A program made the translations under genes and the position numbers. A stretch of 64,000 nucleotides of DNA from Candidatus Hydrogenedentota bacterium (GTDB lineage Bacteria > Hydrogenedentota > Hydrogenedentia > Hydrogenedentales > SLHB01). The notes below the pieces were generated by a model, which worked only from the letters and a program-made list of their open reading frames with translations, did not search any database and was not told the origin of the DNA. The stretch spans positions 248,001-312,000 of the forward strand of contig JAKPDK010000070.1 of the NCBI GenBank assembly GCA_029552745.1, given 5' to 3'. This document shows, piece after piece, positions 19,956 through 37,103 of the stretch. Each line of letters begins with the position of its first letter. Position 1 is the first letter of the stretch.

Positions 19956-21077
19956 TCATGTATTGCCGTAGCGGACGTAGGCTTCGCAAACGGGCCACAA
20001 GCGGTTGCCCCACGTGCCGGACGGATAGCGCGCAAATTCCACGTGCCCATCCATGAACAGGATGTTGGCGCCGCCGGGGATGTGGTTAAACTGCCACTGC
20101 TTCTGCATGGAGGACCCTTGGTGGACTTTCGTCAGGTCGTGCATCACGACGATGTCGGATTGAGCCGCCGTTGAAGCCGCTGGATTGTTGATGTCGGTGA
20201 TGAAGAACCGCTCAATCCCTTCCCGCAAGCGCATTAGATTGACCGTGGGCCCACCCGGCGTGACAGCCGTGTTTGGTGCGTCATTGATATTCGACGTCCA
20301 AGACGCAGGCCATAGGGTGACGGTCTTATCTTTATTGCGGTTAATATACTTCGTGTTTTGGGTAACACCGGCCGCATCGGTTCGTGTAGAGCGTGTCCAG
20401 AGACGGACGATTTCTTGGGCGTTCGTTGTGTTGGTAATCCATTCACCTTTGATGGCGAAGGGATAATACATGTAGGACCATGAGCTGCCACATGCCAACC
20501 AGGTTTGAGGGCCGTACCCTTTGTCATTGTGGATACTGGCTTGGAAGTTGGAATCGATCGGCACCATGAAGGCCTGCATGTTTGCTGCCTGATCTTTTGC
20601 CCATTGGAATGCCGGATTGATATTATCTGCTTGGAGCAAGGGGTGAGGGCCGGCGAAGAAGTCGTGCGGCCGATCATTGTCTGAAGGACATGCGAAAATA
20701 TTCATGTCATTCATATAATCCGGCCACAGTTCCTCCATGGCAATCTGGTCATAACTGCCGGGTCCCTCAGCGCTCGACCAATCCGACCTCGGATTTCCAG
20801 AGTAGTATCCGCCTTCGTCGAAGCTCGGCACGTAAGGTACTGTACTGAACCAATTCTTGTTCAAACCTCCAATACGATAGTTACGCGCTGGAAATAGCTT
20901 GTTCTCCGTAGAATGCATTTTCAGCACGAGGCCAAGTTGTTTCAGGTTGTTCTGGCAGCTGGCACGACGAGCGGCTTCCCGAGCGCGTGCTAACGCCGGC
21001 AACAAGATCGCCGCTAAAATGGCAATGATCGCGATCACCACCAGAAGCTCAATTAAAGTGAAGCCTTTCTTATGCAT
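19956..21077 (-). CDS. DUF1559-type prepilin-like protein (H-X-DG C-terminus)
   Basis: The 373 residues open with a type III signal [20 protein letters not shown], cut by prepilin peptidase after Gly; the hydrophobic helix then anchors the pilin. The body matches the DUF1559 group expanded in Planctomycetes, Lentisphaerae and related phyla, ending with the processing-associated motif [17 protein letters not shown]. In the named H-X9-DG motif nine residues separate His and Asp; here there are ten because of an extra Pro. Such proteins are thought to assemble at the cell surface; their role is unknown. A LacI-type regulator gene lies 160 nt upstream on the same strand. Confidence 0.9.
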
Positions 21078-21236
21078 GTCATTTTCCTCCGTTTTACCGG
21101 CATTAAGGACTAATCCGGTACACTTTTATTACAGTTACTAACCCCTCAACTTGAAATCTTGCTGTGGTTGGGCATTTGCCTGTCAGGCCCTGCGGTCTGC
21201 GGCGCCAAGACGCAAAGGCCACAACCTCAAAAGGCG

Positions 21237-22406
21237 CTATGAGATCTTGATGGCCACCTCCTTTCTTAATTCGGGAGTCGAGTCTTGTACGAGGTATTTA
21301 ATAAAGCTCTCTCCAAGCTGACACGACTCCCTTTCGTTGTACTGCCAAGGGATGACGACCTTTACAGGGTCTTTCACTTTTCCCTCGACAATATCAAGCA
21401 CCAAACGTGCGGCTTCTTCCCCTGCTCTGACATACGGGTACCGAAGAGCCGTTAGACTGGGAGATAGATAGGGGAAAATTGGGTCGTCGCCGATCACTAT
21501 TAGTTCCAGGTCCCGCGGACACACGAGCCCTCTTTCGTGCAAACACTCGATGAAATAATGGGCGACTTCGGGTCTGCCGATGATCATGGCCGTCGGCCTT
21601 GGCCATAGGTCGAAAAGACGCTCCACAAGCGCCTTGGTGGGTGTTTGTCCTAGACGTTCGGTGGGCATCAAGGCTGGGTCATAAGGGATTTCCGCCTCAT
21701 CCAGAGCGGTACGGTAGCCCTGACGCCTCAGCAAAGTTTCTAGAGGTGGGTCATTCGGGTGACAAATGAAACAGGCAATTCGATGGTGCCCCTTGGCAAT
21801 CAGAGCTTTGGTTAGGACGTAAAAGTCTTGGCAGTCATCAGGGGATACGGAAAATCCCGCGGGGTGTACGGGACTGGGACCCATCGTTACCAAAGGTACA
21901 CCGGCTGCGACCAGCTCAGTGTAAAAATCGTAGTGTTGGTTCGGTTCCACGTAGATGAGACCGTCAATGAAGTCAGGACATATATCTTTGGGGGCGTTGG
22001 GGTGGCCATAATCATGTTCCACCCGATTGAAGATATGAACTTCGTATCCCCTCATCTGAGTAATGTGTTGTACACCAGAGACCATTGCCCCAAACGAAAG
22101 CCAAGTGACTTCTCTATGTTCCAGCTGGCCGCTGGGCTCGGTAATCGGGAAATACATTCCAATGACGTGCGTCTTGGACATGGCTAGGCTACGGGCGAGT
22201 CGGTTAGGGCGGTATCCAAGTTCTTTGACGGCTTCGATGACCCTTTTTCGAGTATGTTCTGCGATAGGGAAAGCCAGTTCGCGGTTGTTGAGAATTCGCG
22301 AAACCGTGGAAGGGGTCACCCCAGCACGTCTTGCGACGTCCCTGATGGTTGCTCTTCTATGTCCTCCGTCTGAACCCGTAGTCATGATCCATAAAACCAT
22401 TTGCAT
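21237..22406 (-). CDS. LacI-family transcriptional regulator
   Basis: The N-terminal helix-turn-helix ATIRDVARRAGVTPSTVSRI and hinge-region GYRPNRLARSLA are textbook LacI/GalR features, followed by a periplasmic-binding-like effector domain with VIGMYFP, DGLIYVEP and LPTERLGQTPTKAL segments. Such regulators usually bind a sugar or related metabolite and repress nearby genes. The drawn start (22406) adds about 18 residues before the HTH; an ATG at 22385 is equally possible and closer to the family. Candidate operators: the CGGTTGC/GCAACCG inverted pair at 22425-22431 and 22460-22466, just upstream of its own gene, which would suit autoregulation. Downstream is the DUF1559 gene. Effector unknown. 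Confidence 0.92.
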   Translation of the reverse strand: MQMVLWIMTTGSDGGHRRATIRDVARRAGVTPSTVSRILNNRELAFPIAEHTRKRVIEAVKELGYRPNRLARSLAMSKTHVIGMYFPITEPSGQLEHREVTWLSFGAMVSGVQHITQMRGYEVHIFNRVEHDYGHPNAPKDICPDFIDGLIYVEPNQHYDFYTELVAAGVPLVTMGPSPVHPAGFSVSPDDCQDFYVLTKALIAKGHHRIACFICHPNDPPLETLLRRQGYRTALDEAEIPYDPALMPTERLGQTPTKALVERLFDLWPRPTAMIIGRPEVAHYFIECLHERGLVCPRDLELIVIGDDPIFPYLSPSLTALRYPYVRAGEEAARLVLDIVEGKVKDPVKVVIPWQYNERESCQLGESFIKYLVQDSTPELRKEVAIKIS

Positions 22407-22665
22407 AAAACAATGTTAAGCATACGGTTGCCACAAATGCTTGGTTACAATGCATTGCCGCAACCGATTGTATGTATCTTACAGCATCGTTTGGGTTTTG
22501 TCAAGAGGTTTTTTTCGCCTCTGGAACGTTTTCAGATCGGTTAGAATTAAGCCTGACGAAAGTGTCGAAGGGATTGTGTGAACGTTTATTGCAGAGAAAT
22601 CGGTTGTTTATCTTTGCTTTTATAGGATAGAATGCCTTGTTAAGGCGGAAAAAGGAGTCTTTAGA

Positions 22666-23733
22666 ATGCATAAATGCTATGCTACGGTGTTTTCGTTAGC
22701 TGTGTTGTCCCTGGCATGTAGCACGTCTTCTCCGGGATTCCGCACCATGTCCGAGTCGCAGAGTTTCACTTCAGCAAAAAAGGTTGAAATGGCTGAGGCG
22801 GAAGCGGCACTTCGGCAGGCGGCGCTTTCGGGCGTTTTAGGGACAAGCCCCTATGAGTTTTGCCTGGCGGAGGAATATCTGTTTTTGGCGCGGGAAATGA
22901 AGACGCGTGGGGATACGCAAGCGATGTATGATTACCTCGCGTTGTCTAAGGAAATGTCGGAGACCAGCCTACGCAAACCAGGCGTGGTATCACTCGACGC
23001 TGCGTCTTTGCCGTCGGATAGGGAGGCTTGCGAATCGGAGTTTGCGCGTCTAAAGGAATGTTATCTGTCAATAGATACGAACAAAGCGATTACAGTTGCT
23101 CCCATGCTATATGCGCGGCTGAAGGGTGCCCTGAGTTTGGCTGAATATGAAATTCAGGTAATGCGTTATAAACAGGCGGGTGAAGCGTTGGGTCTGGCAG
23201 GTGGTCACTTAAACGCCCTTTTGGCTCAGGACACGGACAGCGACGGGGTGGCCGATCTATTTGATGGAGCACCTTTAGCACCGGAAGACAAAGACGGGTT
23301 TGAAGATGAGGACGGTATACCGGACTTAGACAACGACCAAGATGGTGTGTTGGACGCCAATGATGTAGCGCCAAACACTCCAGAGACGAAGAATCGGTGG
23401 CATGATGAAGATGGTGCCCCGGATGAGTACCCAATTTTAGAGACGCTTTCTTTTGAGACGGGAAGCGACACCCTGTCTGGGGAATCAAAGGGGTACTTAC
23501 GTGGGTTGGCGATAGTTCTTGAGGAGTGGCCCTTACTGAAATTACGTATTGTGGGCTATCCTGATGCGAATGGGGACCCCCAAGGTAGTTTTGATTTGGC
23601 GCAACGTCGCTCCACGGCTGTCAGAGACTACTTGGCATCTGTCGGGCTGAGTTCCGGTCAGTTGGAAGTGGCTTTTTCCGAAGGGGGCGCGGACGGGGCT
23701 AATAAGTCCTGCGTGAGCTTGGAGTTCCGTTAA
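22666..23733 (+). CDS. OmpA-family outer-membrane lipoprotein with TSP3-type calcium repeats
   Basis: The 355 residues begin with a lipoprotein signal (lipobox LSLAC, Cys18). A helical region (about 35-180) precedes a block of Asp-rich repeats (DTDSDGVADLFDGAP, DEDGIPDLDNDQDGV, about 188-255) of the thrombospondin type 3 kind, which bind calcium. The C-terminal OmpA/MotB-like domain (about 260-355) has LSFETGSDTLSGESKGYL and FDLAQRRSTAVRDYLASVGL, the peptidoglycan-binding pattern. It probably links outer membrane and peptidoglycan. The AAAGGAG ribosome binding site fits ATG 22666. The gene precedes apbE by 46 nt on the same strand. Confidence 0.9.
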   Translation: MHKCYATVFSLAVLSLACSTSSPGFRTMSESQSFTSAKKVEMAEAEAALRQAALSGVLGTSPYEFCLAEEYLFLAREMKTRGDTQAMYDYLALSKEMSETSLRKPGVVSLDAASLPSDREACESEFARLKECYLSIDTNKAITVAPMLYARLKGALSLAEYEIQVMRYKQAGEALGLAGGHLNALLAQDTDSDGVADLFDGAPLAPEDKDGFEDEDGIPDLDNDQDGVLDANDVAPNTPETKNRWHDEDGAPDEYPILETLSFETGSDTLSGESKGYLRGLAIVLEEWPLLKLRIVGYPDANGDPQGSFDLAQRRSTAVRDYLASVGLSSGQLEVAFSEGGADGANKSCVSLEFR

Positions 23734-23779
23734 CAAGTCGTGTGAATAAGTGACACCTTTGGTTCGTCTTCTCTGTGAC

Positions 23780-24907
23780 ATGTTTTACCGTAAAGATATA
23801 CAACGGAAGTTGAAAGCAATCTTTTCAAACTTTTTTTTCCTAATCCTCCTCTTTATTCTCTTGAGTCCTGTTGGCTTGTCCGTTGAGAAAAATGAAAGTC
23901 CCTCTCGCTCTGCTGTTTCTACTGTGGAATATGACACGAACGGGGATCAAGGCGAATACTTTCGTTTTGAACATGGGGCTATGGCAACGACATTCGCCAT
24001 TACTTTTTACACGGAGAACAAGGGTACTCCACCGGACGACTTTGGCCGGCTGGCACAAGAGGCCTTTGACCTTATTGATGATATAGAGGGACGAATGAGC
24101 CGCTATCGTCCGGATAGTGAGATTACGTTTATCAATCATCGTGCTGTCCAAGAGCCTGTGCGGTTGTCGGCGGATCTCCTGGAGCTTGTTACCACAGTTC
24201 AGGTGATTTATAAGGACACACAAGGTGCTTTTGACCCGACAGTAGGTCCCTTGCTCAAGTTGTGGGGCTTTTATCAGAAAGACGGAATTTTGCCTGACCG
24301 CCATACTATTGAAGAAACCTTGGCATGTGTGGGCTTCGATAAGGTACAAATTAGCCCGAAAGAGAGGACTGTTTTTTTCACCAGAGAGGGTATGCAGTTG
24401 GACCTGGGGGGGATAGCCAAAGGATATGCGGTAGACCAGGTAGTGGCACTGCTCCGGCGGTACGGTATAAAGACGGCAGCTGTGGACGCCGGTACAAGTA
24501 GCATTTTTGTTTTGGGGGCGCCGATGGGGAAAATGGGATGGCGGGTTCGGTTGAGACATCCGTATGATCCAGCGCGTTTTGTTGCGGAAGTTACTCTAAA
24601 AGATGTCTCTTTTTCGGCTTCCGGACTGGGAGAACGTTATGTCGAAATAGACGGAAAACGGTATGGTCATATTTTCGATCCCAGGACAGGATTTCCGGTG
24701 GAGGGTTTTGCATCTACGGTCGCCATTGCTCCTTCGGCGACGGTAAGTGATGCGCTGAGCACAGCCTTTTTTGTAATGGGTATGGAGAATGTGATACAAT
24801 ATACTAGGAATCATCCGGACGTCCGGGCTATATTAGTGCCCAGGTCGGATTCAGGCGATTGTGAGGCCGTGTGGATAAACTTTTCGAAAAGCGAGGATCA
24901 ACCATGA
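23780..24907 (+). CDS. apbE: FAD:protein FMN transferase (ApbE)
   Basis: ApbE attaches FMN covalently to Thr/Ser of exported flavoproteins (RnfG, NqrC and FMN-binding-domain proteins) using FAD and Mg2+. The sequence has a membrane-spanning signal (FFFLILLFILLSPVGLS), then HGAMATTFAI, MSRYRPDSEI, AFDPTVGPLLKLWGFYQ, LDLGGIAKGYAVD, AVDAGTSSIFVLG, GHIFDPRTG and SDALSTAFFVMG, covering all conserved motifs. No lipobox Cys is visible. ATG 23780 is chosen; an in-frame GTG at 23750 is possible and neither has a clear ribosome binding site. Its stop overlaps the start of the next gene (ATGA). No recognisable FMN-binding target gene is nearby; the cytochrome at 26441 does not show the FMN-binding motif. 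Confidence 0.94.
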   Translation: MFYRKDIQRKLKAIFSNFFFLILLFILLSPVGLSVEKNESPSRSAVSTVEYDTNGDQGEYFRFEHGAMATTFAITFYTENKGTPPDDFGRLAQEAFDLIDDIEGRMSRYRPDSEITFINHRAVQEPVRLSADLLELVTTVQVIYKDTQGAFDPTVGPLLKLWGFYQKDGILPDRHTIEETLACVGFDKVQISPKERTVFFTREGMQLDLGGIAKGYAVDQVVALLRRYGIKTAAVDAGTSSIFVLGAPMGKMGWRVRLRHPYDPARFVAEVTLKDVSFSASGLGERYVEIDGKRYGHIFDPRTGFPVEGFASTVAIAPSATVSDALSTAFFVMGMENVIQYTRNHPDVRAILVPRSDSGDCEAVWINFSKSEDQP

Positions 24908-26331
24908 AGACAGAGGTGTCAAGAAGGGGATTTATTAAAACAGCCGGCGCGGCAACAGGTGTCATGCTGGCCACCGGGTTTTCTCCATTTTCCTATGCGC
25001 AAAATGAGAAGGTGCGCGTAGCGAGCATAGGTACAGGCGGCCAGGGTTCGTTTCATTTACGAGACGGATTATCCCGCGCCAATAACATCAAGATTATTGC
25101 TGTATGCGATGTTTACAAACCCCATTTGGAGGGTGGTTACAAGAATGCGGGTGGGGGCGATGTCAAAAAATATATGGATTACCGCGAGATGATAGAAAAG
25201 GAACAATTGGACGCGGTAGTCATCTCTACGCCGTTGGCGACCCACTACCAGATCACGATGGACTGTCTGGATGCGGGGCTTTACTGTTTTACAGAAAAAA
25301 CGATGTGTTTCACGATTGAGCAGTGTCGTGACGTCGTGAAGAAAGCCCATGAAAAGGGCCTGTTTGTTCAAGTAGGCCATCAGCGGCGGTACAATCCGGT
25401 GTATAACCATGCCCTGAAACTGGCTCGCGAAGAGGGAGTGCTTGGACGGATAACGCACATTGATTGTCAGTGGCATCGAAACAATGATTGGCGGCGGCCT
25501 GTTGACAAGAATTACGTGCTCTCTCCGGAGGAGAGTCGGTGGATTAAGGATTTGGAGCGACACCTGAATTGGCGGTTGTATCATGAGACATCGGGTGGGT
25601 TGATGACCGAACTTGGCACGCATGCTTTTGACGTGGTGAACTGGTTTCTTGGTGCGCGGCCGACTCGCGTGCATGGGTACGGTTCGCTCGATTATTGGCG
25701 TGATGGTCGGGACGTGTTCGATCATGTGAATGTGGTGTTTGAATACCGTGTTACCCCGGAATGTCCGGGATATCGAGAAATTGAGCCGAGGACCACACAG
25801 CAAAAGGAATACGGAAAATACAATGAGCCCTATAATGTCGGCGTGACGTATTCCAGCATTTGCACGAATATGAACCGTGGTGCGTCGGAATGTATCCAAG
25901 GTGACGAAGGAACGTTTGTTCTGGCGGAGATGATGACGCCGCGGTATTACCGGGAGCCGAATTCACGAGTGAAATGGGCGGAAAGCGGCGCTCGGGGTGC
26001 TGCAGAAGCCAACGCAACCATTATCAGTGAAGGTAAGACACTAACCATCAGTAACAAGGCGCAGACTGAATATGAGCCGATTCTAGTAGACACTGATAAA
26101 TCAGTAGATCAGATTCAGTTTGAGCATTTTGCCCGTGACATTCAAAAGGGTGGCCCGAAAAATGGTGCGGTGCCGCGTGCCAATGAGATGGTCGGTCTGG
26201 AATCGGCGATATGCGCTTTGGCTGCGGAAAAAGCGATGTGGGAGAGGTCGGAAGTCATTATTGACCCGAAGTGGTATGAGTTTGATTTCGAAACCCCGAG
26301 TACAACTCTGTACGGGCCTATCGAAGTCTAA
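24904..26331 (+). CDS. Gfo/Idh/MocA oxidoreductase, twin-arginine exported
   Basis: The 475 residues start with a twin-arginine signal (SRRGFIKTAGAATGVML). The NAD(P)-binding fold follows (VRVASIGTGGQGSFHLRDGL), then VISTPLATH and the characteristic FTEKTMCF; the usual EKP triad at this point is EKT here. The C-terminal Gfo/Idh domain includes SGGLMTELGTHAFDVVNWFLGA. Members oxidise sugars or cyclitols; export by Tat means folding with NAD(P) in the cytoplasm. Substrate unknown. The start ATG overlaps the apbE stop by 4 nt (GAGGATC upstream), so expression is coupled. The next gene is the cytochrome c/b fusion, 109 nt on. Confidence 0.92.
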   Translation: MKTEVSRRGFIKTAGAATGVMLATGFSPFSYAQNEKVRVASIGTGGQGSFHLRDGLSRANNIKIIAVCDVYKPHLEGGYKNAGGGDVKKYMDYREMIEKEQLDAVVISTPLATHYQITMDCLDAGLYCFTEKTMCFTIEQCRDVVKKAHEKGLFVQVGHQRRYNPVYNHALKLAREEGVLGRITHIDCQWHRNNDWRRPVDKNYVLSPEESRWIKDLERHLNWRLYHETSGGLMTELGTHAFDVVNWFLGARPTRVHGYGSLDYWRDGRDVFDHVNVVFEYRVTPECPGYREIEPRTTQQKEYGKYNEPYNVGVTYSSICTNMNRGASECIQGDEGTFVLAEMMTPRYYREPNSRVKWAESGARGAAEANATIISEGKTLTISNKAQTEYEPILVDTDKSVDQIQFEHFARDIQKGGPKNGAVPRANEMVGLESAICALAAEKAMWERSEVIIDPKWYEFDFETPSTTLYGPIEV

Positions 26332-26348
26332 ATAAATCCTCAAGGAAG

Positions 26349-26354
26349 TATAAT
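26349..26354 (+). promoter_or_regulatory. Candidate -10 element before the cytochrome gene
   Basis: A perfect TATAAT, 87 nt before the start codon and 17 nt after the stop of the previous gene. The corresponding -35 position reads GTCTAA, a poor match, so a regulator may be needed. A hairpin follows directly (26355-26393). Confidence 0.35.
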
Positions 26355-26393
26355 GCGCAGAAGGAGACGATGGGGCACTTGCCTTCTCCGCGC
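26355..26393 (+). promoter_or_regulatory. Leader stem-loop before the cytochrome gene
   Basis: GCGC-AGAAGG (26355-26364) pairs with CCTTCT-CC-GCGC (26382-26393), with a 2-nt bulge and a 17-nt loop. It has no T run, so it could be an mRNA structure element rather than a terminator. Confidence 0.4.
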
Positions 26394-26440
26394 GTGAGGT
26401 TTATAGCAGCGCTCATCTCGTAAAGAAAGGTGGAGAATGT

Positions 26441-29400
26441 ATGCGTAAGACGACTGTGGGAGGGTTGCTTTGTTTTCTTGTTTGCGGTGTATTCCTGGTT
26501 GTGTCCTCAGCATGGGGGCAACCGCAAGAGACTTCTGTCGGTGAGAATCTCGACAAATATATAGGTAAATACCTTGCCACCAAGAACCGTGCGGCACGGG
26601 CGGGGGTATCTCGACTTTATCCTCAGTCTTGTCCTCCGTTTTTTCTCCGAGACGAATTTGATCGAGTGATTGATGAGAATAGCACGCAACCCGTGAGTCT
26701 TGTGCAGACTTGTGGAAAATGTCACAGCGTGGAAACCGTTACGGGCGGTTATCATTTTCAAATGGGACGGGACGAGTTATACCCAACACAAAAGCTTGGT
26801 GAGCCCGTACCTCTTCACAAGAGTCCTGGTGTTTACGGGAAATGGCAGTTATTGTATCAACGCGAGTTGGCGCCAAAGACGTTTGAGCATCCCGATCAAG
26901 TTGATATGACATCATTTGACTTTGTGGCGACGTGCGGGATTTGTCACCCCGGCGGTGGTCCCACCCTTTTTGACAGAGGCGGTCTGCGCTATGACACGGT
27001 CATGTTGCAAGACCCGGCGGTAGGGTTGACCAATGATGGGGACTACTATCAGGCGATGTGGCATAAGTCCGGTGCATTGGAACCCGATTGTCTGATTTGT
27101 CATTTGGAACACTATGAATATTCAGATCGCGCTCAACAAATAAAAAAGCTCAACTTCAAGTGGGCGGCAACGGTTGCCGGCGGTTTTGGGGATGTCGAGG
27201 GGGCGGTCAAAAACGGCGAGGTTCCAAAGGTCAAATACGACAAGAATGTTTTCAGGCCGGATGGTAAGGTTTATCTGAAGATTCAGCGACCCGATGATCG
27301 GGCTTGTCTTTTCTGTCACGATATTTCAGGGGTACAGAAACGGGGCACAACCTGGACGAGCAATTACTTGTCGGATGTGCATACGGACATTGGGCTTTCC
27401 TGCATCGATTGTCACCCGGGTGACATTCGTCACAATTTTGCCAAGGGCTACTCTTCATCTCAATCGGTGCGGGACGATATTGATGGAAGTGCCTTGTCTT
27501 GTAAGCAATGTCATTATGAGACAGGAGACTTCGGCGCGCCCGCTTTCGACCATCGAGGTCTGCCCCCGCTGCACTTGGAACGCTTGAGTTGCGAAGCGTG
27601 TCATATCACCAAACGTCCTTTCTTGTCGGCACGCACTGTGGATGTTCTCACAGGTAAGGCGATAGAGCTTGCCAATGAGCCAGACCCCGTGCCTCCGAAA
27701 AACCTGATGTTTGGTGCCCTTTGGGGAAAAGTCAAGGTTATCAGCCCCGAAGCCCCGATGGAACCGTTTAGCCGCGAGGAGTTGGAATCGGCTGCGGAGA
27801 TGGTAGTTTCAACGGATTCGCCTATTCGTAAAGCCTTTGCGGTTCTGGGCGATGAGTGGAAGCTGCCCGAAAATGCTTTTAAGGTTCGGGAGTTTATCAA
27901 AGGAAACCCGGCTATCGTGGAAACCCCTGCGGAAAGAGCGCTTATGTTGCTTGCTCTGCAGCAGGGTCTCGACAAAGACGTTACGGCAGTGGCTGTTTTT
28001 CGCAACAAAGCCTATAAGATGACGTCAGAAGGGCTCCGCGAGACAAAGGCTTCTTGGCCTGTGAAACGGGTGGGTGCCATCGCCGAATATCCCGTCGCGA
28101 ATGCTGTTCACGAGCGCAACGGTCAGAAAGTCATTGCTCCAGAGGGATATCAATTGGGCGTTTTTTGGGCTTATGAAGATAAGTCAGGGGATAAGACGGT
28201 TGTTCGGCCGTTGTTATTGAAAGATATGCAGGTCGCCTGGGAGTTTCTGAGAGACAATGCTGTGACTCTGTATCCGGGAAAGGCTGACGGCGCTAATTCT
28301 GGTGACATGTCATCCGAAGAGGCTGTTCGGACGGCAATTAAGGAGAGGTTGGCTGCGTACACAGACGCCGAAGCCAAGAGGCTGGGGGTATATGACGATA
28401 ATTTTGACACATGGCCTGAAGTCAATACCGAAGACGAGATAAAACTTGTCGCGTGGGCGCTGGTGCAAACGGTAAAACGTCTACCCTCACCGCAGCTCTA
28501 TTTCATCAATGGCGAGACGGCGCGGCGGGTCACCATTGAGAACTGGGATGATCCGTTTGCTGTTTCTTTGACAGAAGCGGTCCTCCCAGCCGAGGACAAG
28601 CCTTTTGTCGCCATAAAACGTGTAATGGAACGCGACGATAAAGGCGCGCCAAAGCACGAAGAGCTTCGCCTCGCAAAACCCTTCGAAGTGAAGATCGAGC
28701 CTGTGGACACTTCGGCAAATACGGCGCTGGCGGAGCTTGCTCAACGTTTGCCCTGGACTATATCCCATGGCGTGGAGCCCGCCAAGTCAGCTCTGGGCGC
28801 CAACACGTGTGCGGATTGCCATTCCCTGGATTCACCGTTCTTTTTCACGGCGGCAACCGTGGTTCCCTTTGGTGATGATGGTTTGCCAAAGACGCAGCCA
28901 GTTTATGCGCGTCTTGGATACAACCTCAGCGGCATACAGATTGGAGCGTGGCGCGAGTCTGTGTTGAAACCTTACGCCAAATGGGTGGTTTTGGTAGTTC
29001 TTGTCGTTATGTTGCTTCACTATATGCTTTTTGGTAGTCGGGACAAACGCAAAGACTTTGTGCCCGATGTGTTGCGGTTCAGCTTACACGAGCGAGTGGG
29101 TCACCTGATTTTGATGGTTACCGTTACGTATTTGGCGGCGTCTGGATTTTGTTTCCTACTCGGCAAACACGACCCACTAGGGGAGACAGCCCGCTATGTC
29201 CACACCGTTTTGGGTTATGTCGCGGTGGCAGGCTATGTCATTATCTTCCTGTCGTGGACCCGGGACATGATCTTAAATAAGCGGGACATTCATTGGCTTA
29301 AAGGATTTGGTGGTTACTTGGGCGGAGCCGGACATCTTCCTGCCGGTAAGTTTAACGCCGGTCAAAAGATACTGTACTGGCTAACTATTCTTTTGGGTGT

Positions 29401-29653
29401 TGTTCTGATATATACGGGCATTATCATGGGGTTAAATCGAGAAGCACACTTTGCTGGCCAAGAATGGATATATACCATCCACGATGTCGCAGCGTTCCTG
29501 ATGATTTTGGTCTTGCTGGGACACATCTACTTGGCGGTTTTTGTAGTGCCTCACAGCCTGAAGAGCCTGTTCGGTGGTTGGGTGAGTTCTTTATGGGCAC
29601 AGGAGCACCATCCGGACTGGAAACCTGCAAAGAGAATAAAATCAGACGTTTAG
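26441..29653 (+). CDS. Octahaem cytochrome c fused to a cytochrome b membrane domain
   Basis: A 1070-residue protein with a signal peptide (cut near residue 26). Eight CxxCH haem sites lie at residues 91, 165, 217, 289, 321, 354, 384 and 790. The middle part (about 420-780) has none. The C-terminus has four membrane helices typical of formate-dehydrogenase gamma/cytochrome b556 subunits: FSLHERVGHLILMVTVTYLAASG, YVHTVLGY, KFNAGQKILYW, IHDVAAFLMILVLLGHIYLA and WAQEHHPDW, with the His ligands for two b haems. The design suggests electron flow between the quinone pool and the periplasm on one polypeptide; direction and partner are unknown. No catalytic dehydrogenase subunit is nearby. Two hairpin terminators follow. 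Confidence 0.9.
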   Translation: MRKTTVGGLLCFLVCGVFLVVSSAWGQPQETSVGENLDKYIGKYLATKNRAARAGVSRLYPQSCPPFFLRDEFDRVIDENSTQPVSLVQTCGKCHSVETVTGGYHFQMGRDELYPTQKLGEPVPLHKSPGVYGKWQLLYQRELAPKTFEHPDQVDMTSFDFVATCGICHPGGGPTLFDRGGLRYDTVMLQDPAVGLTNDGDYYQAMWHKSGALEPDCLICHLEHYEYSDRAQQIKKLNFKWAATVAGGFGDVEGAVKNGEVPKVKYDKNVFRPDGKVYLKIQRPDDRACLFCHDISGVQKRGTTWTSNYLSDVHTDIGLSCIDCHPGDIRHNFAKGYSSSQSVRDDIDGSALSCKQCHYETGDFGAPAFDHRGLPPLHLERLSCEACHITKRPFLSARTVDVLTGKAIELANEPDPVPPKNLMFGALWGKVKVISPEAPMEPFSREELESAAEMVVSTDSPIRKAFAVLGDEWKLPENAFKVREFIKGNPAIVETPAERALMLLALQQGLDKDVTAVAVFRNKAYKMTSEGLRETKASWPVKRVGAIAEYPVANAVHERNGQKVIAPEGYQLGVFWAYEDKSGDKTVVRPLLLKDMQVAWEFLRDNAVTLYPGKADGANSGDMSSEEAVRTAIKERLAAYTDAEAKRLGVYDDNFDTWPEVNTEDEIKLVAWALVQTVKRLPSPQLYFINGETARRVTIENWDDPFAVSLTEAVLPAEDKPFVAIKRVMERDDKGAPKHEELRLAKPFEVKIEPVDTSANTALAELAQRLPWTISHGVEPAKSALGANTCADCHSLDSPFFFTAATVVPFGDDGLPKTQPVYARLGYNLSGIQIGAWRESVLKPYAKWVVLVVLVVMLLHYMLFGSRDKRKDFVPDVLRFSLHERVGHLILMVTVTYLAASGFCFLLGKHDPLGETARYVHTVLGYVAVAGYVIIFLSWTRDMILNKRDIHWLKGFGGYLGGAGHLPAGKFNAGQKILYWLTILLGVVLIYTGIIMGLNREAHFAGQEWIYTIHDVAAFLMILVLLGHIYLAVFVVPHSLKSLFGGWVSSLWAQEHHPDWKPAKRIKSDV

Positions 29654-29700
29654 CCGATTAGCCCGTATATCACCATTCTGAATGTTAGAACTGAAGTGGG

Positions 29701-29732
29701 AGCCGCTATGTACAGCGGCTTTTACTTTTTTT
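29701..29732 (+). terminator. Rho-independent terminator 1 after the cytochrome gene
   Basis: AGCCGCT (29701-29707) pairs with AGCGGCT (29714-29720) and is followed by TTTTACTTTTTTT, 48 nt after the stop codon. Confidence 0.85.
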
Positions 29733-29749
29733 GATAGTTCACATTCTTT

Positions 29750-29782
29750 CGTCTTGCGTCCGGCCGAACGCAAGACGTTTTT
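29750..29782 (+). terminator. Rho-independent terminator 2 after the cytochrome gene
   Basis: A perfect 10-bp stem, CGTCTTGCGT (29750-29759) with ACGCAAGACG (29768-29777), an 8-nt loop and a following T5. Tandem terminators like this insulate the unit from downstream sequence. Confidence 0.85.
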
Positions 29783-29977
29783 CACGTTAAGGGAACAGAA
29801 TGAAATCTTGCTTGAAAGATTAGTCGTGTCTCCTACCTATTCCCGTCTTATTTTCCTGTTCTGATAACAAACACTTGGAAGCAAAAGCGGTTCAGCCGTC
29901 GTGTGCTGTAGGGGAGGTAGCGAACCTGTTCACATTGTGTTCCGTATCTGACTATGTAATTTAGTCGCGAACACGGT

Positions 29978-30994
29978 CTACTCGGGAACGTTGGAGCGGG
30001 CAAATTCCACCAAAGCTTTCATGTTTTCATGTGGAGTATCCCGGGGCACTTCACAACCCGCGCCCACAATGTAATGAGGTTGAGCCTTAAGGTAGCACTC
30101 CGCCAAACTTTCTTTTATCTTAACCGGGTTGCTGTTTCGCAACGTGTCCACGGGTGCGATATTTCCACAAAGCACTTGTTGCGCTCCTGTGTGAGTTCTC
30201 GCTTCTTTCATAGGAACGGGGTAGTCAATATCTACGATGTCGCATCCCAGCCGTCCCATTCCATCCAATATAGCCCTTGTGTTTCCGCAAATGTGGAGTC
30301 GTACGAGCCCTCCGGCTGCGTGTATGTTGTCAACCAACTGTTTTTCAAAAGGAAAAACAAACTCGTCGTACATGTTTTTCCCAACGAGTGAAGCGGCAGC
30401 GTCTCCAATTCCAATGATGTCTGCGCCAGCCTCAATTTGAGCTTTGGCGAATCCCGATTCCATGAGAAGCACGAACTCGAACAAGTCGTTTACGAACCCC
30501 GGGTTTTCGTAAAAATCCATCATAAGCATATTGATGCCCCGGAGATCGGCCGCCTCCGCGCAGGGGCCCTCCACCCACCCTTCGACGAGCCTATCATTTT
30601 CAGCCTTCTCTTTTAGTAAGGCAGCAGCCCGTATTCGATCACTCATGCGCGGACTAACATACGGGTCTGGAATACGTAAGCGAACGAGGCGGGTTTTGTC
30701 GATGAGTAGGGCGTCCGATTCGATGATTGCTGGAGGCTGATTTTCAAAGAACTGGATTTTTGCGCCACAATCTGCCGCTTCTCGTGCAGGGTCTGAAATG
30801 CAGGAAACATGGTCAATACCAAAAACCTCTGCTACCCGTAATTGAGCATCGACCAAGGTCTTATAATCGGTCACATAATCAAGGTAAGCAACACCTGCAA
30901 GGTCTGCAGCGAACATCATTGTAATAGGCATGCAGGCTAGATGGTCGGTCTGTTCTCTTGAAATGGTCCTGAGAATGCGTTCTCGTCCAGTCAT
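29978..30994 (-). CDS. Uroporphyrinogen-decarboxylase-family methyltransferase (MtaA-like)
   Basis: The 338 residues match the URO-D fold as used by MtaA/MtbA/CmuA corrinoid methyltransferases: RERILRTISREQTDHLA at the N-terminus, GWVEGPCAEAADLRG, ADIIGIGDAAASLVG, and the zinc-binding HIC motif (His234, Cys236) with a third Cys at 314 (GAGCEVPRDTP). Real uroporphyrinogen decarboxylases lack this Cys/His set. Such enzymes transfer methyl groups between a corrinoid protein and coenzyme M or tetrahydrofolate; no corrinoid protein is in the window. Formate-THF ligase at 51763 would fit one-carbon use, but the link is inference. It sits downstream of the porin terminator, on the same strand. Confidence 0.85.
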   Translation of the reverse strand: MTGRERILRTISREQTDHLACMPITMMFAADLAGVAYLDYVTDYKTLVDAQLRVAEVFGIDHVSCISDPAREAADCGAKIQFFENQPPAIIESDALLIDKTRLVRLRIPDPYVSPRMSDRIRAAALLKEKAENDRLVEGWVEGPCAEAADLRGINMLMMDFYENPGFVNDLFEFVLLMESGFAKAQIEAGADIIGIGDAAASLVGKNMYDEFVFPFEKQLVDNIHAAGGLVRLHICGNTRAILDGMGRLGCDIVDIDYPVPMKEARTHTGAQQVLCGNIAPVDTLRNSNPVKIKESLAECYLKAQPHYIVGAGCEVPRDTPHENMKALVEFARSNVPE

Positions 30995-31012
30995 AGTTAC
31001 TTTTCCCTAAAT

Positions 31013-31047
31013 AAAATGCGTCCACCAAAGGTATCTTTGGTAGACGC
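31013..31047 (-). terminator. Rho-independent terminator of the symporter-porin operon
   Basis: On the minus strand GCGTCTACCAAAG (31047-31035) pairs with CTTTGGTGGACGC (31030-31018) with one mismatch and a 4-nt loop, and is followed by ATTTTATTT. It ends 25 nt past the porin stop. Confidence 0.88.
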
Positions 31048-31071
31048 TCCAGATCAAGTCAGGAATGGATT

Positions 31072-32640
31072 CTAGAATTTCAACACGGACATCAAGAATA
31101 CATAGTCAGCGTCTTCATCATCGGAGCCGCCTGAGAAATCCGTGCCATTGAACTGAATAAACGCGCCTCGGGCCAATCCTTCACCCGTAAACAGGTGGTT
31201 GTAGTACAGCAGGAAGTATAGGTCGGGTGAATAGTTGTATTTCGCCCAGAATGCCACCTCCCAACCGATATCGTCACTTCCTTCCTCCGTCCAGAAGCTC
31301 AAGGCGGGGGCAATCGGGACTCGGAACCTGCCTAACTTAAACGAAACAGGATAATCGAAAGGCGCCACGATCCAATCTTTTGCAACGTGGAAGTGAAGGC
31401 GAACTGCCTCGGTGGGTTGGAGTTCGACTCCCAAACCTGCCTGGGCAAAATTAGACAGCCACCCGTTATCATTTACAACGGGAAGATGGTTAATATCGGA
31501 AAAGAGGCGATTAAACGATACGCTGGCATCGGGCTTGTAGAACGGATTAAGCCAGTCCCAAAAGCTGATGTCGCGGTTGTCGTGGCCTTGGAAATAGTTC
31601 CCGAAAGCACAAACTCGTGGGCTCCAAGTGGTGTCGAAGGTGTATCCTACGGTGAGCTCGGCAGCCCAGTTGTCAAAGTCGGCGTCTGTTACGCCGTATC
31701 GAAGTCCGAACGGTCTAAATCCGGGTCCGTAGAAATCGGCGTTCCCAAACTGGTATGCCGTCTCCAAGTCATAATCGAACCCTGCCGCATTCCCAAACAA
31801 CCTGACACCGACCGTGTGGAGATTTGTCACATCGTAATCATCCACGCCGAAAATGTCCTCTAGCCACTCGACAAACCACGGGAAATTCGTGTCGTTAAGG
31901 CTTCTTGCATCACGCAACCATAACCAATAGGCTGACACTTGAAGCGGCTTAAAGGCTTCATATGTGCCGTAAATGCCATAGAAATCGGCGTCGCCGTCTT
32001 CTTCTGTGACTCCGTTTTCGAGTAGTTTAGCCGCAAAGGCGTCCACGCTGAAGGCATCGACGTCATAGGTAAGGCGGATTGCATCAAAAGAGAGACGTTG
32101 CGTGGGGGTTAACATGTCCGAAATGAGCCACCCTTTACCGAACTTAAGGGCTTGACGGCCTATGCGCAATCGAAGAGGCATCCCAAACATTTCGTTTGTT
32201 TCTATATAGGCCTGATTGAACTCCACGTCGTCGGCGGTACGTGCGCGGTTATCGGCACCGGTTATCCAGTTAGAACGGAAGTCTTCTCCCCACTGATTGA
32301 AGTCATAAAGCTCAACGAAAGCAGACACGTTATTGGTGAAGTCCGCTTTCACATTGAGCAACGTGGCGGTCTCGGAAAGGTGCCAATCCGCGCCTCTTCC
32401 GTTCCAGTCAAAAATCGACGACACACCGCGGGGCCCAATAGGACGCTTGACGAGAAAGAAATTGGGAATTCGAATTTCTCGCCGAAAACCGCCGAGCCCC
32501 GGATTTTGGTCGGTAAACGTGTTGCGATAGTAGCGATAACGTACACGCAGTTCCCCCCCGATTTGAACATTCTGTAGCTCTGAATAGGCGAGACCGCAGA
32601 GCAGCAATAACACCAACGCTACTGTCCATTTCTTTGTCAT
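31072..32640 (-). CDS. Outer-membrane beta-barrel protein (alginate-export/porin type)
   Basis: The 522 residues begin with a signal peptide (KWTVALVLLLLCGLAYS), followed by alternating amphipathic beta strands. Features of the alginate-export/long-chain-porin group are the start VQIGGELRVRYRYY, the IGRQALKFGKGWLISD segment and a C-terminal Phe (LMSVLKF), the signal for BAM-dependent insertion. It most likely forms a diffusion channel for the solute carried by the adjacent symporter. GGAGGGAG precedes the ATG. It is the last gene of accessory-symporter-porin, with a clear terminator after it. The substrate is unknown; family names based on alginate should not be taken literally. Confidence 0.87.
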   Translation of the reverse strand: MTKKWTVALVLLLLCGLAYSELQNVQIGGELRVRYRYYRNTFTDQNPGLGGFRREIRIPNFFLVKRPIGPRGVSSIFDWNGRGADWHLSETATLLNVKADFTNNVSAFVELYDFNQWGEDFRSNWITGADNRARTADDVEFNQAYIETNEMFGMPLRLRIGRQALKFGKGWLISDMLTPTQRLSFDAIRLTYDVDAFSVDAFAAKLLENGVTEEDGDADFYGIYGTYEAFKPLQVSAYWLWLRDARSLNDTNFPWFVEWLEDIFGVDDYDVTNLHTVGVRLFGNAAGFDYDLETAYQFGNADFYGPGFRPFGLRYGVTDADFDNWAAELTVGYTFDTTWSPRVCAFGNYFQGHDNRDISFWDWLNPFYKPDASVSFNRLFSDINHLPVVNDNGWLSNFAQAGLGVELQPTEAVRLHFHVAKDWIVAPFDYPVSFKLGRFRVPIAPALSFWTEEGSDDIGWEVAFWAKYNYSPDLYFLLYYNHLFTGEGLARGAFIQFNGTDFSGGSDDEDADYVFLMSVLKF

Positions 32641-32738
32641 TTTTCTCCCTCCGCGATTTTGTTTTTGGTTAAGTCCTTTTGGCGTCTATGAAAAGTTGCC
32701 AAGATTCTCCTTAGCAAACGTTTCCCCTTTTCACCTGT

Positions 32739-34634
32739 TTATTTGCCGAAACATTTTGAGATATGAGACTCATCCATAGGTTTCGTGAAAAACGTCACGA
32801 TTGCCGCTACTATAACAGATATTGGTAAACCAATTACAAGGGGGTCAACAACAGTCCATGTCACACTCCAACCCTCAGGGACCAACACGGCTTTGTGGAA
32901 AAGCTTGCTGCACAGGCCAATTCCTACTGCGGTTTTTGCATTGACAAAGAGTAACCAGAACAAACTCGTGAAAAACCCAGCGACAACGGAGGAAATTGCA
33001 GCGGCTTTTGTTATACGTTTTGAAAAAAGGCCGCCGATGAATGCAGGCAGAAACGAGGCAGCACAAAGACCGAAAAAGATTGCCGTTGCCAAGGCGATGA
33101 TGTTGTCTCCCAAGATCCGTCCGAGAACTATGGCAACGATAAGTCCGATTCCAATACCAATCCGAGTGACAAGAACCGATCGTTCGGGTTTAGCGCTGGT
33201 GACCTGTTGTAATACATCGCGTCCAATCGCGGTACCTATCGTATGAAATTGTCCAGCCAAGGTGCTCATCGCCGCTGCGAGCAAGGTAAGCATGAAGATA
33301 ACCCCGAACCAGCGGGGCATCGCGCTATTTACATATGTTGGAATGATGCGGTCCACATTACCTTGCATGGTTGTCTCATTACTGATTGTACGGGCAATGG
33401 AAATGAGTCCCGGTCTTATCACGTCTGGGGCATTTGCTGATCCGCGTTCAATTTGTGTTTTAGGTGTAAAGAGCACATAGTGCGGCGGAGCTGTACTGGG
33501 CTCATTTAATAGTCTGTAAGTAATGAAGCGTTTTGCTCTTGCCTTGACATCATCTGAGGCATCCGCCGAGATTGGCTTAAGTTTCTGTTTGCCGCCGGGC
33601 CCGGGATCCATGAGCACGGAGTCGTCAAGGATTCGGCAGGTGATAACTTCTTTATCATGAAAGTAAACGTTTGATAGGGCGCCGACAGTAAATGCTACCC
33701 CAGTCATCATGAGAATGAAAGCGCCGCCCACACCTACGGCACGGTTTAAGGATTGTTGAGATTTTACAGTCATAAAACGCACGATGAGTTGCGGTTGAGC
33801 AAGCACACCAATGCCTACTCCAAGGATGATGGTTGTTACCATAATCCACCACAGGTTATGGGGGTCTGGTGGAATGGGAGAGCCGGCCGGTGGCATTTTA
33901 GTGGAAGCCCAACCAAATAACGGCATGGATGTCCAACCGCGATGGCCTATCGCAGCCAAACTTTGGGGAACTTCACTCTTCAGTGCAGTCAATGACTGGT
34001 GGGCATCGATCACACCGCCTAACATAAAATATGTTGAAAAGATCAGAATCGTCATGCCGATGAGCATAATGATTCCCTGTAACGCATCGGTAAGCATGAC
34101 TCCTTTTAGTCCGCCGGGAATAACGTAGGCGGCGACAATGAGTGCAAAGATATATAGAGCAATTTCTGGCGAGACATGGAATACGGCGGCAATGAATTCT
34201 GCGCCGCCTTTTATCACCGCCATTGCGTATAAAGGCATGAATACGAAGATGACCAATGCCGAAAATACATGCAAAAAGCGACTTTGAAATCGACGTCCAA
34301 GAAATTCAGGAAACGTGTGAGCATCCAGTAAGTGTCCCATGCGCCGGGTTCTGCCGCCGAAGAACACAAACGCGATGAATACGCCCACAAAGATGTTTAG
34401 AAAGGTTAACCACAAGAGCCCCATGCCGAAGTTCGCCGCAACACCGCCGAAACCCACGATAGCGGACGTGCTGATGAAAGCGGCGCCATACGATAGCGCC
34501 ATTACAGCGGGATGCGCCTTGCGGCCGGCAATGAGATAGTCTGTTGCGGTCTTTGTCTGTGTATATCCCCGATATCCGAGATATGCCGTGATGAGCAAGT
34601 ATCCGATAATGATGACGATGGTCAACAGATCCAT
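32739..34634 (-). CDS. Sodium:solute symporter (SSS family)
   Basis: A 631-residue transporter of the SSS (LeuT-fold) family: about 13 membrane helices with YLGYRGYTQTKTATDYLIAG in helix 1, the GVMLTDALQGIIMLIG region, and GVFIAFVFFGGRTRRMGHL. A large hydrophilic insert (about 325-415, rich in Gly, Pro and Lys, including DDSVLMDPGPGGKQKLKP) is not typical of the core family and is presumably extracytoplasmic. It imports a carboxylate, amino acid or sugar with Na+. The 58-residue accessory gene is 37 nt upstream and the porin 98 nt downstream. The substrate cannot be deduced. Confidence 0.92.
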   Translation of the reverse strand: MDLLTIVIIIGYLLITAYLGYRGYTQTKTATDYLIAGRKAHPAVMALSYGAAFISTSAIVGFGGVAANFGMGLLWLTFLNIFVGVFIAFVFFGGRTRRMGHLLDAHTFPEFLGRRFQSRFLHVFSALVIFVFMPLYAMAVIKGGAEFIAAVFHVSPEIALYIFALIVAAYVIPGGLKGVMLTDALQGIIMLIGMTILIFSTYFMLGGVIDAHQSLTALKSEVPQSLAAIGHRGWTSMPLFGWASTKMPPAGSPIPPDPHNLWWIMVTTIILGVGIGVLAQPQLIVRFMTVKSQQSLNRAVGVGGAFILMMTGVAFTVGALSNVYFHDKEVITCRILDDSVLMDPGPGGKQKLKPISADASDDVKARAKRFITYRLLNEPSTAPPHYVLFTPKTQIERGSANAPDVIRPGLISIARTISNETTMQGNVDRIIPTYVNSAMPRWFGVIFMLTLLAAAMSTLAGQFHTIGTAIGRDVLQQVTSAKPERSVLVTRIGIGIGLIVAIVLGRILGDNIIALATAIFFGLCAASFLPAFIGGLFSKRITKAAAISSVVAGFFTSLFWLLFVNAKTAVGIGLCSKLFHKAVLVPEGWSVTWTVVDPLVIGLPISVIVAAIVTFFTKPMDESHISKCFGK

Positions 34635-34671
34635 ATTGACGGTTCTCCTTCTGCGAAAACGGTCTGCAAAA

Positions 34672-34848
34672 CTAGTTTGTCAAACCGTTGTCGCTTTGTT
34701 TCTCTTTTTTCGCCCATTGTTCATCTTCCGGCCTGATCGATTCATCGCCTTTGTTCCATGTGAGTGCACCGTAGGCAATACATAAGGCTGCACTACCGAT
34801 ACACAACACATACGCCAAGAATACACCGAAACCTTCAAGACCGAGCAT
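34672..34848 (-). CDS. Symporter small accessory protein (58 aa)
   Basis: The frame begins at ATG 34848 and ends with TAG at 34672-34674. It has one membrane helix (about 6-28, FGVFLAYVLCIGSAALCIAY) ending in GALTWNKG, then a charged cytosolic tail. This layout and the WNKG end match the small accessory proteins that precede SSS-family symporters in many genomes. A strong ribosome binding site (GGAGGGGG) lies about 8 nt before the ATG. The gene lies 37 nt upstream of the symporter in the same operon. It probably stabilises or regulates the transporter. Confidence 0.85.
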   Translation of the reverse strand: MLGLEGFGVFLAYVLCIGSAALCIAYGALTWNKGDESIRPEDEQWAKKEKQSDNGLTN

Positions 34849-35616
34849 AAAGCCCCCTCCTTCGTGAAAATACGGTAACCTACAATAACCCCGTCGTGCT
34901 TGACTTCAAAATGCTGAAGCTAAGTAACATCTCCTACTTTATTGTTTTGATTACTTTAAATTCAAGTCAATGTATTCGTCCTACGCTTTGTAACGATCTG
35001 TTTGTTCTTGTGAGTAATTCTTGTGAAGATATTTCGTTATCGTCATGAGTAAAAAGTGCAAGTGCGCAATCGTCACAAGTGCATCTGAGCCATCTGCGAC
35101 TTTCTTCGGTCGTTCGAGGATCCCCAGCGTCTCCACACGATGTCCCCCGCGCTTATCAACTGAGAAGATTGCTTCGTCGTTCAGAAGATTCTGCTCCTCG
35201 CAATGAGCATGCTGCGGAGAACTAAATATAGGTCGAACTATTTGTGCGAAATCTCGGAGATTCGTAGCATCACATCCGAATTAACTTATCTAAGAGTACA
35301 CATCAAAACTACTCAGATGTTGAGGTATAGGAAAACTCTTTTTTACAGGATAAAAGATAGTGAAAAGCAACACTTTGTTGAAAAGACTTTTGGGGACGTA
35401 TTGAGAATTACGCGATACGTAGAAATCATGGCCGGTACAAGCGGCGTCTGGTTATCGCTTTGGAGAAAGTTTCGCCGAGGTTTACTTTAGCTTGATTACT
35501 CAGGCTCTGTTTGACAAGTGAGAGCTTCCAAGCATACATTATAGTGTTGTTTTGGCACGAGTCAAAGTGAAAGAAATAGGTCAAGGTGCCGTAACCGAAA
35601 AGCAAAGGGTAAAGTT
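34849..35616. other. Intergenic region with a decayed repeat fragment
   Basis: About 770 nt between the symporter operon and the divergent Gfo/Idh gene. It must hold both promoters, but none could be picked with confidence. A plus frame at 35203-35490 (95 codons) lacks a ribosome binding site and a recognisable domain, and it begins within the repeat fragment, so I do not call it. Confidence 0.4.
35164..35207 (+). repeat. Decayed fragment (D) of the 49801-type repeat
   Basis: Reads GATTGCTTCGTCGTTCAG and CTGCTCCTCGCAATGAGC, matching the ACTACTTCGTCGTTC...CTCGCTCCTCGCAATGG module of the copy at 49801-50336. The terminal modules are missing, so this is a remnant. Confidence 0.6.
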
Positions 35617-37002
35617 ATGAGACAAGTAAAATTTTCAAGGCGTGTTTTTATTTTTGGGACAGCCCTCGCAGCGACAGGTTGTGTCTCAAGCAAACCAAAA
35701 ATCCGCCGAGTTTCTGCGAATGAGAAGTTGAACATCGCGGGTATAGGTGTGGGCGGCCAGGGAAAGGGAGACCTCAGGAATTGTGGCACGGAGAATATCG
35801 TCGCTCTGTGTGATGTAGATTGGAATCGCGCTGCCGACACATTCAAGACGTTTCCAAACGCGAAACGCTACAAAGATTTTCGGGTGATGCTGGAAAAAGA
35901 GAAGGACATAGATGCGGTTGTCATCAGCACACCGGACCACACGCATGCGGTTGCAGCCATGGCCGCTATGGAGCTGGGGAAGCACGTTCGGGTGCAGAAG
36001 CCGTTAACCCACTCTATCTATGAGGCGCGAAAACTTATGGAGGCGGCGAGAAGATATGGTGTATCGACGGCCATGGGGAATCAGGGGCATTCGGGGGATG
36101 GTGTTCGACAAATGTGTGAGATTCTGTGGTCGGACGCAATAGGTTTTGTGCGAGAGGTGCATATTTGGACGAATCGTCCGGTATGGCCTCAAGGCATAAA
36201 ACGCCCGGCGAAAACTGATCCGGTTCCTGATTATCTCGATTGGGATCTCTGGTTGGGTCCAGCTCCGGAACGTCCGTATGTCAATATCCATCCCGATACA
36301 AATCAACCTTGTTATTGTCCGTTTGTGTGGCGTGGCTGGTGGGATTTTGGATGTGGGGCTCTTGGAGACATGGCTTGTCACATCATGGATCCAGCGTACT
36401 GGTCTTTACAATTAGGTTTGCCCACAAAAGTGGAATGTGTGACTCAAGAAGGCAACAACAGTGAGACATGTCCTGTCAAGTCTATTATCAAGTACGAATT
36501 TCCGGCTCGTCCTTTCAGGGAGAACTATCCGAGTGTCAAGTGGTATGGCAAGACACTGCCTCCGGTCACGGTCTACTGGTACGACGGGGGATTAATGCCG
36601 CCGAGACCAGAGGGGGTATCGCCGGATGAAAAGTTGGGCGATGGAGATAACGGTTCGTATTTTGTGGGAGAGAAAGGTGTCGCGACAACCGGCTGCTATG
36701 GCGGTGACACTCGCCTAGTGCCCGCAGCGAAGATGCAAGATTTCAAGATGCCGGACCCGGTTATTCCGCGAGTTCCGGATGGCAATTCCCACCAGGACTG
36801 GATCCGTTCGTGCAAGGACGGCAAACCTCACTGTGCGAATTTCGACTATGCTTCGCCGTTTACGGAAGTGGTTTTGCTGGGTAATTTGGCAGTACGGAGC
36901 GGTGCCCCTATTGAATGGGACAGTGGTAACATGCGGGTAACAAACGTGCCGGAAGCCAATCAGTTTGTGAAGCGTGAATATCGCAAAGGTTGGACACTTT
37001 AA
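35617..37002 (+). CDS. Gfo/Idh/MocA oxidoreductase, exported paralogue 1
   Basis: A 461-residue protein with a twin-arginine-like N-terminus (FSRRVFIFGTALAATGC) whose hydrophobic stretch ends in Cys22, a likely lipoprotein site. The NAD(P)-binding domain has LNIAGIGVGGQGKGDLRN and VISTPDHTHAVAAMAAM, then the catalytic HVRVQKPLTHS; the EKP triad is QKP. The C-terminal part contains MGNQGHSGDGVRQMCE, DYLDWDLWLGPAP, CPFVWRGWWDFGCGALGDM and YWYDGGLMPPRP, seen in a subgroup expanded in Planctomycetes-like bacteria. It probably oxidises a sugar or polyol; substrate unknown. Closed by a terminator at 37024-37050. Confidence 0.93.
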   Translation: MRQVKFSRRVFIFGTALAATGCVSSKPKIRRVSANEKLNIAGIGVGGQGKGDLRNCGTENIVALCDVDWNRAADTFKTFPNAKRYKDFRVMLEKEKDIDAVVISTPDHTHAVAAMAAMELGKHVRVQKPLTHSIYEARKLMEAARRYGVSTAMGNQGHSGDGVRQMCEILWSDAIGFVREVHIWTNRPVWPQGIKRPAKTDPVPDYLDWDLWLGPAPERPYVNIHPDTNQPCYCPFVWRGWWDFGCGALGDMACHIMDPAYWSLQLGLPTKVECVTQEGNNSETCPVKSIIKYEFPARPFRENYPSVKWYGKTLPPVTVYWYDGGLMPPRPEGVSPDEKLGDGDNGSYFVGEKGVATTGCYGGDTRLVPAAKMQDFKMPDPVIPRVPDGNSHQDWIRSCKDGKPHCANFDYASPFTEVVLLGNLAVRSGAPIEWDSGNMRVTNVPEANQFVKREYRKGWTL

Positions 37003-37023
37003 GACACTTGCATTTACCAGGAT

Positions 37024-37050
37024 GCCCCTCTTCGGAGGGGCTTTTTATTT
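37024..37050 (+). terminator. Rho-independent terminator after Gfo/Idh paralogue 1
   Basis: GCCCCTC (37024-37030), a TTCG loop and GAGGGGC (37035-37041) are followed by TTTTTATTT. The stable TTCG tetraloop and T run make it strong. Confidence 0.92.
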
Positions 37051-37074
37051 GTCTATTTTGTAGTTGTTAATTTT

Positions 37075-37103
37075 TTGATTAGCCGCATTCTCAGGCGTAT
37101 CGT
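37075..37103 (+). promoter_or_regulatory. Candidate sigma-70 promoter of Gfo/Idh paralogue 2
   Basis: TTGATT (37075-37080), 17 nt and TATCGT (37098-37103), 54 nt before the start codon and after the upstream terminator. Four of six bases match in each box. Confidence 0.35.

Follow-up and report, generated by a model that had tools for sequence, protein, structure and literature searches.

An octahaem c/dihaem b fusion protein encoded with ApbE and a Tat-signal Gfo/Idh oxidoreductase in Candidatus Hydrogenedentota: a candidate quinone-linked electron partner

What might a single polypeptide with eight c-type haem motifs and a membrane-embedded cytochrome b domain accomplish in a Hydrogenedentota bacterium, and is such a polypeptide a natural protein at all? 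The gene that raises this question occupies positions 26441..29653 of the 64,000-nt window, by which we mean the whole stretch of DNA analysed, and lies on the + strand, as do its domains, its operon neighbours and the terminator-like stems described below. It encodes 1070 residues from an ATG start with 0 internal stops.

Architecture and natural occurrence of the fusion

Translation of the open reading frame places eight CxxCH motifs at residues 91, 165, 217, 289, 321, 354, 384 and 790, in agreement with the sequence-only reading, which had described seven sites clustered in residues 91-388 and an eighth alone at 790. The seven-motif cluster (26711..27604) keeps its spacing in relatives, and the eighth motif (28808..28822) is preceded by an invariant histidine, H776. 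The hydrophobic N-terminus, modelled by AF2 as a helix over residues 2-24, points to a putative Sec-type signal peptide of approximately residues 1-27 (26441..26521). Towards the other end of the chain, a first transmembrane helix (residues 829-864, 28925..29032), weakly matched by PF09163 (the FDH-N membrane anchor family), precedes an FdnI-like dihaem cytochrome b domain (residues 877-1060, 29069..29620). Across this domain TIGR01583 (formate dehydrogenase gamma) scores 129.7 bits, above its cut-off of 115.85, a match to be read at domain level; PF01292 matches the C-terminus at 8.8e-19 and E. coli FdnI (1kqf_C) does so by sequence with an E-value of 1.5e-18, while the AF2 model of the domain aligns with 1kqf_C over 187 residues (VIA Z 11.7, rmsd 6.3). 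The formate-dehydrogenase-gamma-like C-terminus proposed from the sequence alone is thus borne out by both families and by the sequence and model matches to 1kqf_C. Furthermore, H888, H921, H1014 and H1028 align in sequence with FdnI His18, His57, His155 and His169, which we take to be the haem ligands in 1KQF, and all four transmembrane histidines expected for b haems are present. According to the Pfam/NCBIfam annotation of the neighbours, no formate dehydrogenase catalytic gene adjoins the fusion. One relative (L043, 4373-7948) carries a divergent C-terminal membrane domain without the H1028 ligand, which suggests that its b domain has been swapped or altered.

Because eight CxxCH motifs are present, TIGR01583 is matched above its cut-off and FdnI is matched by both sequence and model, eight c and two b haems on a single chain constitute a sound prediction, and the earlier idea that one such chain could link quinones to the periplasm is well supported by the same motifs and by an FdnI-like domain with all four haem-b histidines. 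The AF2 model of the whole fusion is poor across much of the haem domain, since the haems are absent from it, and yields no significant Foldseek match; TIGR04315, the octahaem tetrathionate reductase family, remains below its cut-off (26 bits versus 375).

Could the join nevertheless be artificial, as the sequence-only reading had asked, with homologues encoded as separate proteins and a frameshift uniting them here? Distant relatives from the same family of genomes (L032-L035) do encode a c part with seven CxxCH motifs apart from the b part; split and fused states are therefore both natural. Yet a protein search (E <= 1e-60) recovers the stop-free fusion in 15 of 68 Hydrogenedentota genomes, one of the 15 ending at a contig edge; the Hydrogenedentota proteins measure about 990-1250 aa. 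Named relatives come from Candidatus Hydrogenedentota MAGs, and those of shorter form (about 740-907 aa) from Zixibacteria, GN15, Acidobacteria, Bryobacteraceae, Thermoanaerobaculales and Armatimonadetes. Because open fusions with the parts in the same order recur in 15 genomes and in other phyla, we rule out a frameshift or assembly error as the origin of the join and leave it next to no probability. The 7+1 haem spacing is preserved in the relatives except in L041 and L042, from related genomes, where the haem 1 motif reads CX4CH and that of haem 2, cysteines included, is gone (NEGVFHPGGGP). The L032-L035 loci belong to a separate Gfo/Idh subfamily without ApbE, in which the Gfo/Idh gene is directly followed by one gene for the seven-haem c part and another for cytochrome b. 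In one Zixibacteria cluster (L049) two different c/b fusions stand side by side: the 7+1-haem relative and a cytochrome with 21 CxxCH motifs that is joined to a PF01292 cytochrome b domain (2839-5757).

Haem ligands and the haem-free region

The supply of histidines for an all-bis-His set of c haems is short in the fusion family: six non-CxxCH periplasmic histidines (H105, H314, H331, H371, H378 and H776) are invariant in 19/19 aligned proteins, for eight haems, a count that hinges on the alignment used. A seventh candidate column, at residue 306, has His in 12 of the 19 proteins and Thr in the fusion of this locus. With six invariant histidines for eight haems, at least one and perhaps two c haems may bind another ligand or keep an open site. 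In CbcL, ten conserved histidines serve nine haems, all of them inferred to be bis-His (PMC9129911).

The haem-free middle (residues 389-770, 27605..28750) had been described as lacking any known domain, and a Pfam search of these residues indeed returns none, but it is not an unexplained unique domain, because shorter relatives possess the same core. The haem-free region spans 152-160 aa in those relatives versus 306-525 aa in Hydrogenedentota, and in profile comparison the short form aligns with two stretches of its Hydrogenedentota counterpart at 96.5% and 88% probability. As far as these alignments indicate, the middle is a conserved family core that insertions and a variable linker rich in Pro and Ala have enlarged in Hydrogenedentota. 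An internal duplication, hinted at by predicted strands, was rejected, the left and right profiles matching with an E-value of 0.05 over 24 columns. Compared with the PDB, the AF2 model of the middle (pLDDT 73.7) gives no Foldseek E-value below 0.14, the best VIA Z being 3.3 with 43 residues aligned; this absence of PDB relatives should not be taken as a sign of a new fold. A 'DDNxDxxPExN' stretch within the middle, several positions of which are invariant among relatives, would appear to resemble calcium-binding loops.

A conserved operon and the exchange of its third gene

The fusion gene is probably the last of a predicted operon. The first gene on the same strand encodes an OmpA/DUF4398 protein (22666..23733) that has no match in the relatives' neighbourhoods; it is followed by an ApbE flavin transferase (23750..24907), the second of two in the source genome, and by a Tat-signal Gfo/Idh/MocA oxidoreductase (24904..26331) whose best NCBIfam matches fall far below cut-off. 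Alignment of homologues identifies ATG 24904 as the conserved Gfo/Idh start, which gives the gene a 4-nt overlap with the end of apbE. The Gfo/Idh and fusion genes are separated by a same-strand gap of 109 nt in which no terminator-like site was found, so the claim that the fusion forms a separately controlled unit is unsupported. The signals then invoked fare differently: the tandem terminator-like stems 3' of the gene (29693-29728 and 29750-29777) are real, with z = -4.83 for the region and 0/200 shuffles as good, and the leader hairpin is at chance level (z = -0.57, 47/200 shuffles as good). An Rfam search of positions 20000-36000 gave 0 matches. The sequence-only reading thus had the architecture right but missed both the operon context, with ApbE and a Tat-signal Gfo/Idh protein, and the published CbcL architecture.

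The arrangement recurs across the phylum. At 13 loci from several families, the gene immediately upstream of the fusion, in the same orientation, encodes a Gfo/Idh protein, and ApbE adjoins this gene in 13/13 fusion loci examined, the present one included; ApbE is also found beside Gfo/Idh at nearly all of 16 further regions around Gfo/Idh genes. Where the fusion is absent, the next gene often encodes a lipoprotein or membrane-anchored YceI lipocalin (PF04264). Among 60 Gfo/Idh places, the next gene is the fusion in 13, YceI in 27, both in 0 and neither in 20, several of these last being at contig ends or unresolved. The exclusion holds per operon, with YceI encoded elsewhere in some fusion genomes; in the source genome none was found. 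In the Gfo/Idh tree, the fusion-linked proteins form one clade with 99/99 support, one contig-end member included, amid the YceI-linked proteins that lie around it, a topology that fits a single exchange of the third gene. Since YceI lipocalins bind isoprenoids, ubiquinone-8 among them (PMC9113575), a connection with quinones can be drawn for either third gene. The ApbE–Gfo/Idh–fusion operon and the replacement of its third gene by YceI are, like the fused architecture and the b-haem ligands, legible in the sequences themselves. Neither the ApbE–Gfo/Idh association nor the YceI exchange was found in the literature searched, a limited set and hence weak evidence; none of the papers in it treats YceI together with ApbE, and the term Gfo is absent from PMC8238504 and PMC11334425.

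The remainder of the source genome provides the respiratory background. The fusion is its sole PF14522 match and PF09699 has 0 matches, so by these two families no outer conduit of the usual type is visible. Within the window, the fusion is the only open reading frame with more than one CxxCH, and other c-type cytochrome neighbours are thus absent; cytochrome c assembly proteins have two matches in the genome. The contig that carries consecutive nqrB, C, D and E also holds nqrF and the apbE that goes with them, which points to a quinone pool and accounts for the second ApbE encoded in the genome. COX1 has no match in the source genome, and a survey of the phylum reports diverse quinone reductases and a patchy distribution of oxidases (PMC11406978). 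A first-look count gives 12-111 Gfo/Idh-like candidates per Hydrogenedentota genome. In the window itself, two more Gfo/Idh genes lie in tandem at 35617-38552, the first with a strong match to the BT_2158 glycoside 3-dehydrogenase family (510 of 750 bits, below cut-off); together with an alginate-export-like porin (31072-32640), a sodium/solute symporter (32739-34634) and a LacI regulator (21237-22406), they look like a carbohydrate-use neighbourhood.

Possible function and comparison with known systems

We propose, with middling confidence, that the fusion is a CbcL-kind inner-membrane quinone oxidoreductase and the electron partner of the Tat-exported Gfo/Idh dehydrogenase in Hydrogenedentota. 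In this scheme, whose substrate, electron direction, flavin step and complex formation we infer, the Gfo/Idh enzyme would oxidise a sugar-like substrate in the periplasm, with ApbE presumably supplying a covalent flavin for the conversion of hydride to single electrons. These would enter the seven-haem cluster and be passed by haem 8, next to the membrane, to the two b haems; from these, in the manner of formate dehydrogenase N, they would cross the membrane and reduce menaquinone close to its cytoplasmic face. The partnership is suggested by gene neighbourhood, which is an association rather than proof of a complex. In its favour, the distant split c and b genes also adjoin a Gfo/Idh gene; against it, the nearest named relatives outside the phylum lie in apparent extracellular-electron-transfer clusters.

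Those clusters, in which the Zixibacteria and GN15 relatives adjoin decahaem and 19-21-haem cytochromes and a protein of ~585 aa, together with a fused architecture like that of CbcL, MtrH and MtoC (PMC6295460), would suit a CbcL-like quinol oxidase for which menaquinol is the electron donor and periplasmic cytochromes are the route to an outer-membrane conduit. We regard such a role in extracellular electron transfer as unlikely: by PF14522 or PF09699 the source genome holds no other multihaem protein, and the conserved partner in Hydrogenedentota is Gfo/Idh. Distinctly improbable, in our estimate, is a terminal reductase in which one c haem without a second histidine would use quinol electrons to reduce a small periplasmic substrate. 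The shortfall of invariant histidines, six for eight haems against ten for nine in CbcL (PMC9129911), is consistent with it, as is a weak similarity to NrfA and octahaem reductases, but those matches span part of the haem cluster only and fall far below cut-off, and other ligands or poorly conserved histidines could occupy the site.

The dedicated ApbE next door might alternatively flavinylate the fusion itself, in its middle region, where an 'RPGAT' stretch is conserved in several relatives. The fusion of this locus, however, reads RVGA without the T, the versions elsewhere are PGAT or PAAT rather than the ApbE target motif [S/T]GA[S/T] (PMC11334425), and ApbE accompanies Gfo/Idh also at loci without the fusion, all of which makes us consider this target very improbable indeed. 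Neither [S/T]GA[S/T] nor PF04205 (FMN_bind) occurs in the fusion or the Gfo/Idh protein of this locus, and the operon encodes no FMN_bind protein. Elsewhere in the source genome (L063, 442-3231), a large open reading frame that combines an FMN_bind domain with a weakly NosR-like part is a candidate ApbE substrate.

The best reading of the fusion remains a quinone-linked partner of the periplasmic Gfo/Idh enzyme, not a component of extracellular electron transfer. The Gfo/Idh family usually works with NAD(P), and the ApbE–Gfo/Idh–(fusion or YceI) operon is a concrete candidate for coupling an extracytosolic NAD(P)-type enzyme to quinones. A bolder proposal, conceivable though doubtful, would see here a new type of respiratory dehydrogenase, in which a single-chain quinone reductase of ten haems receives electrons from an exported Gfo/Idh enzyme by way of a covalent flavin installed by the dedicated ApbE, and YceI, as a quinone binder, is the alternative partner in sister lineages. 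A CbcL-like fusion, moreover, need not mean extracellular respiration, which calls for caution in genome annotation.

The architecture as such is already known, because a multihaem c part joined to an FdnI-like b part is the published layout of the CbcL/MtrH/MtoC family, with 138 homologues from 15 phyla, 416-1034 aa in length and with 3-23 CxxCH motifs (PMC6295460). Like CbcL of Geobacter sulfurreducens, MtrH and MtoC, the fusion combines an N-terminal periplasmic multihaem c region with a C-terminal HydC/FdnI-like dihaem b domain (PMC6295460, PMC9129911), a likeness of published layout rather than of sequence alignment with CbcL. It departs from that family in its 7+1 haems around a haem-free region of ~400 residues and in its length (about 990-1250 aa in Hydrogenedentota versus the reported 416-1034), and from CbcL in its six rather than ten invariant extra periplasmic histidines and in an operon with ApbE and Gfo/Idh instead of c-type cytochromes. 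FdnI, the cytochrome b556 subunit of E. coli formate dehydrogenase N (1KQF), shares the membrane domain and the four haem ligands but partners an Fe-S subunit, whereas here the domain is joined to a multihaem c. Like ApbE flavinylation systems (PMC8238504, PMC11334425), the locus has its apbE in an operon for electron transfer outside the cytosol, although this operon has neither an FMN_bind protein nor the canonical motif. The LcoA/BcnA system likewise brings a membrane protein of the cytochrome b561 type into one functional theme with a YceI lipocalin (PMC9113575), but in the present operons the multihaem c/b fusion replaces YceI and does not accompany it. What is new relative to the known architecture is the operon of the fusion with ApbE and a Tat-exported Gfo/Idh protein, and the exchange with YceI.
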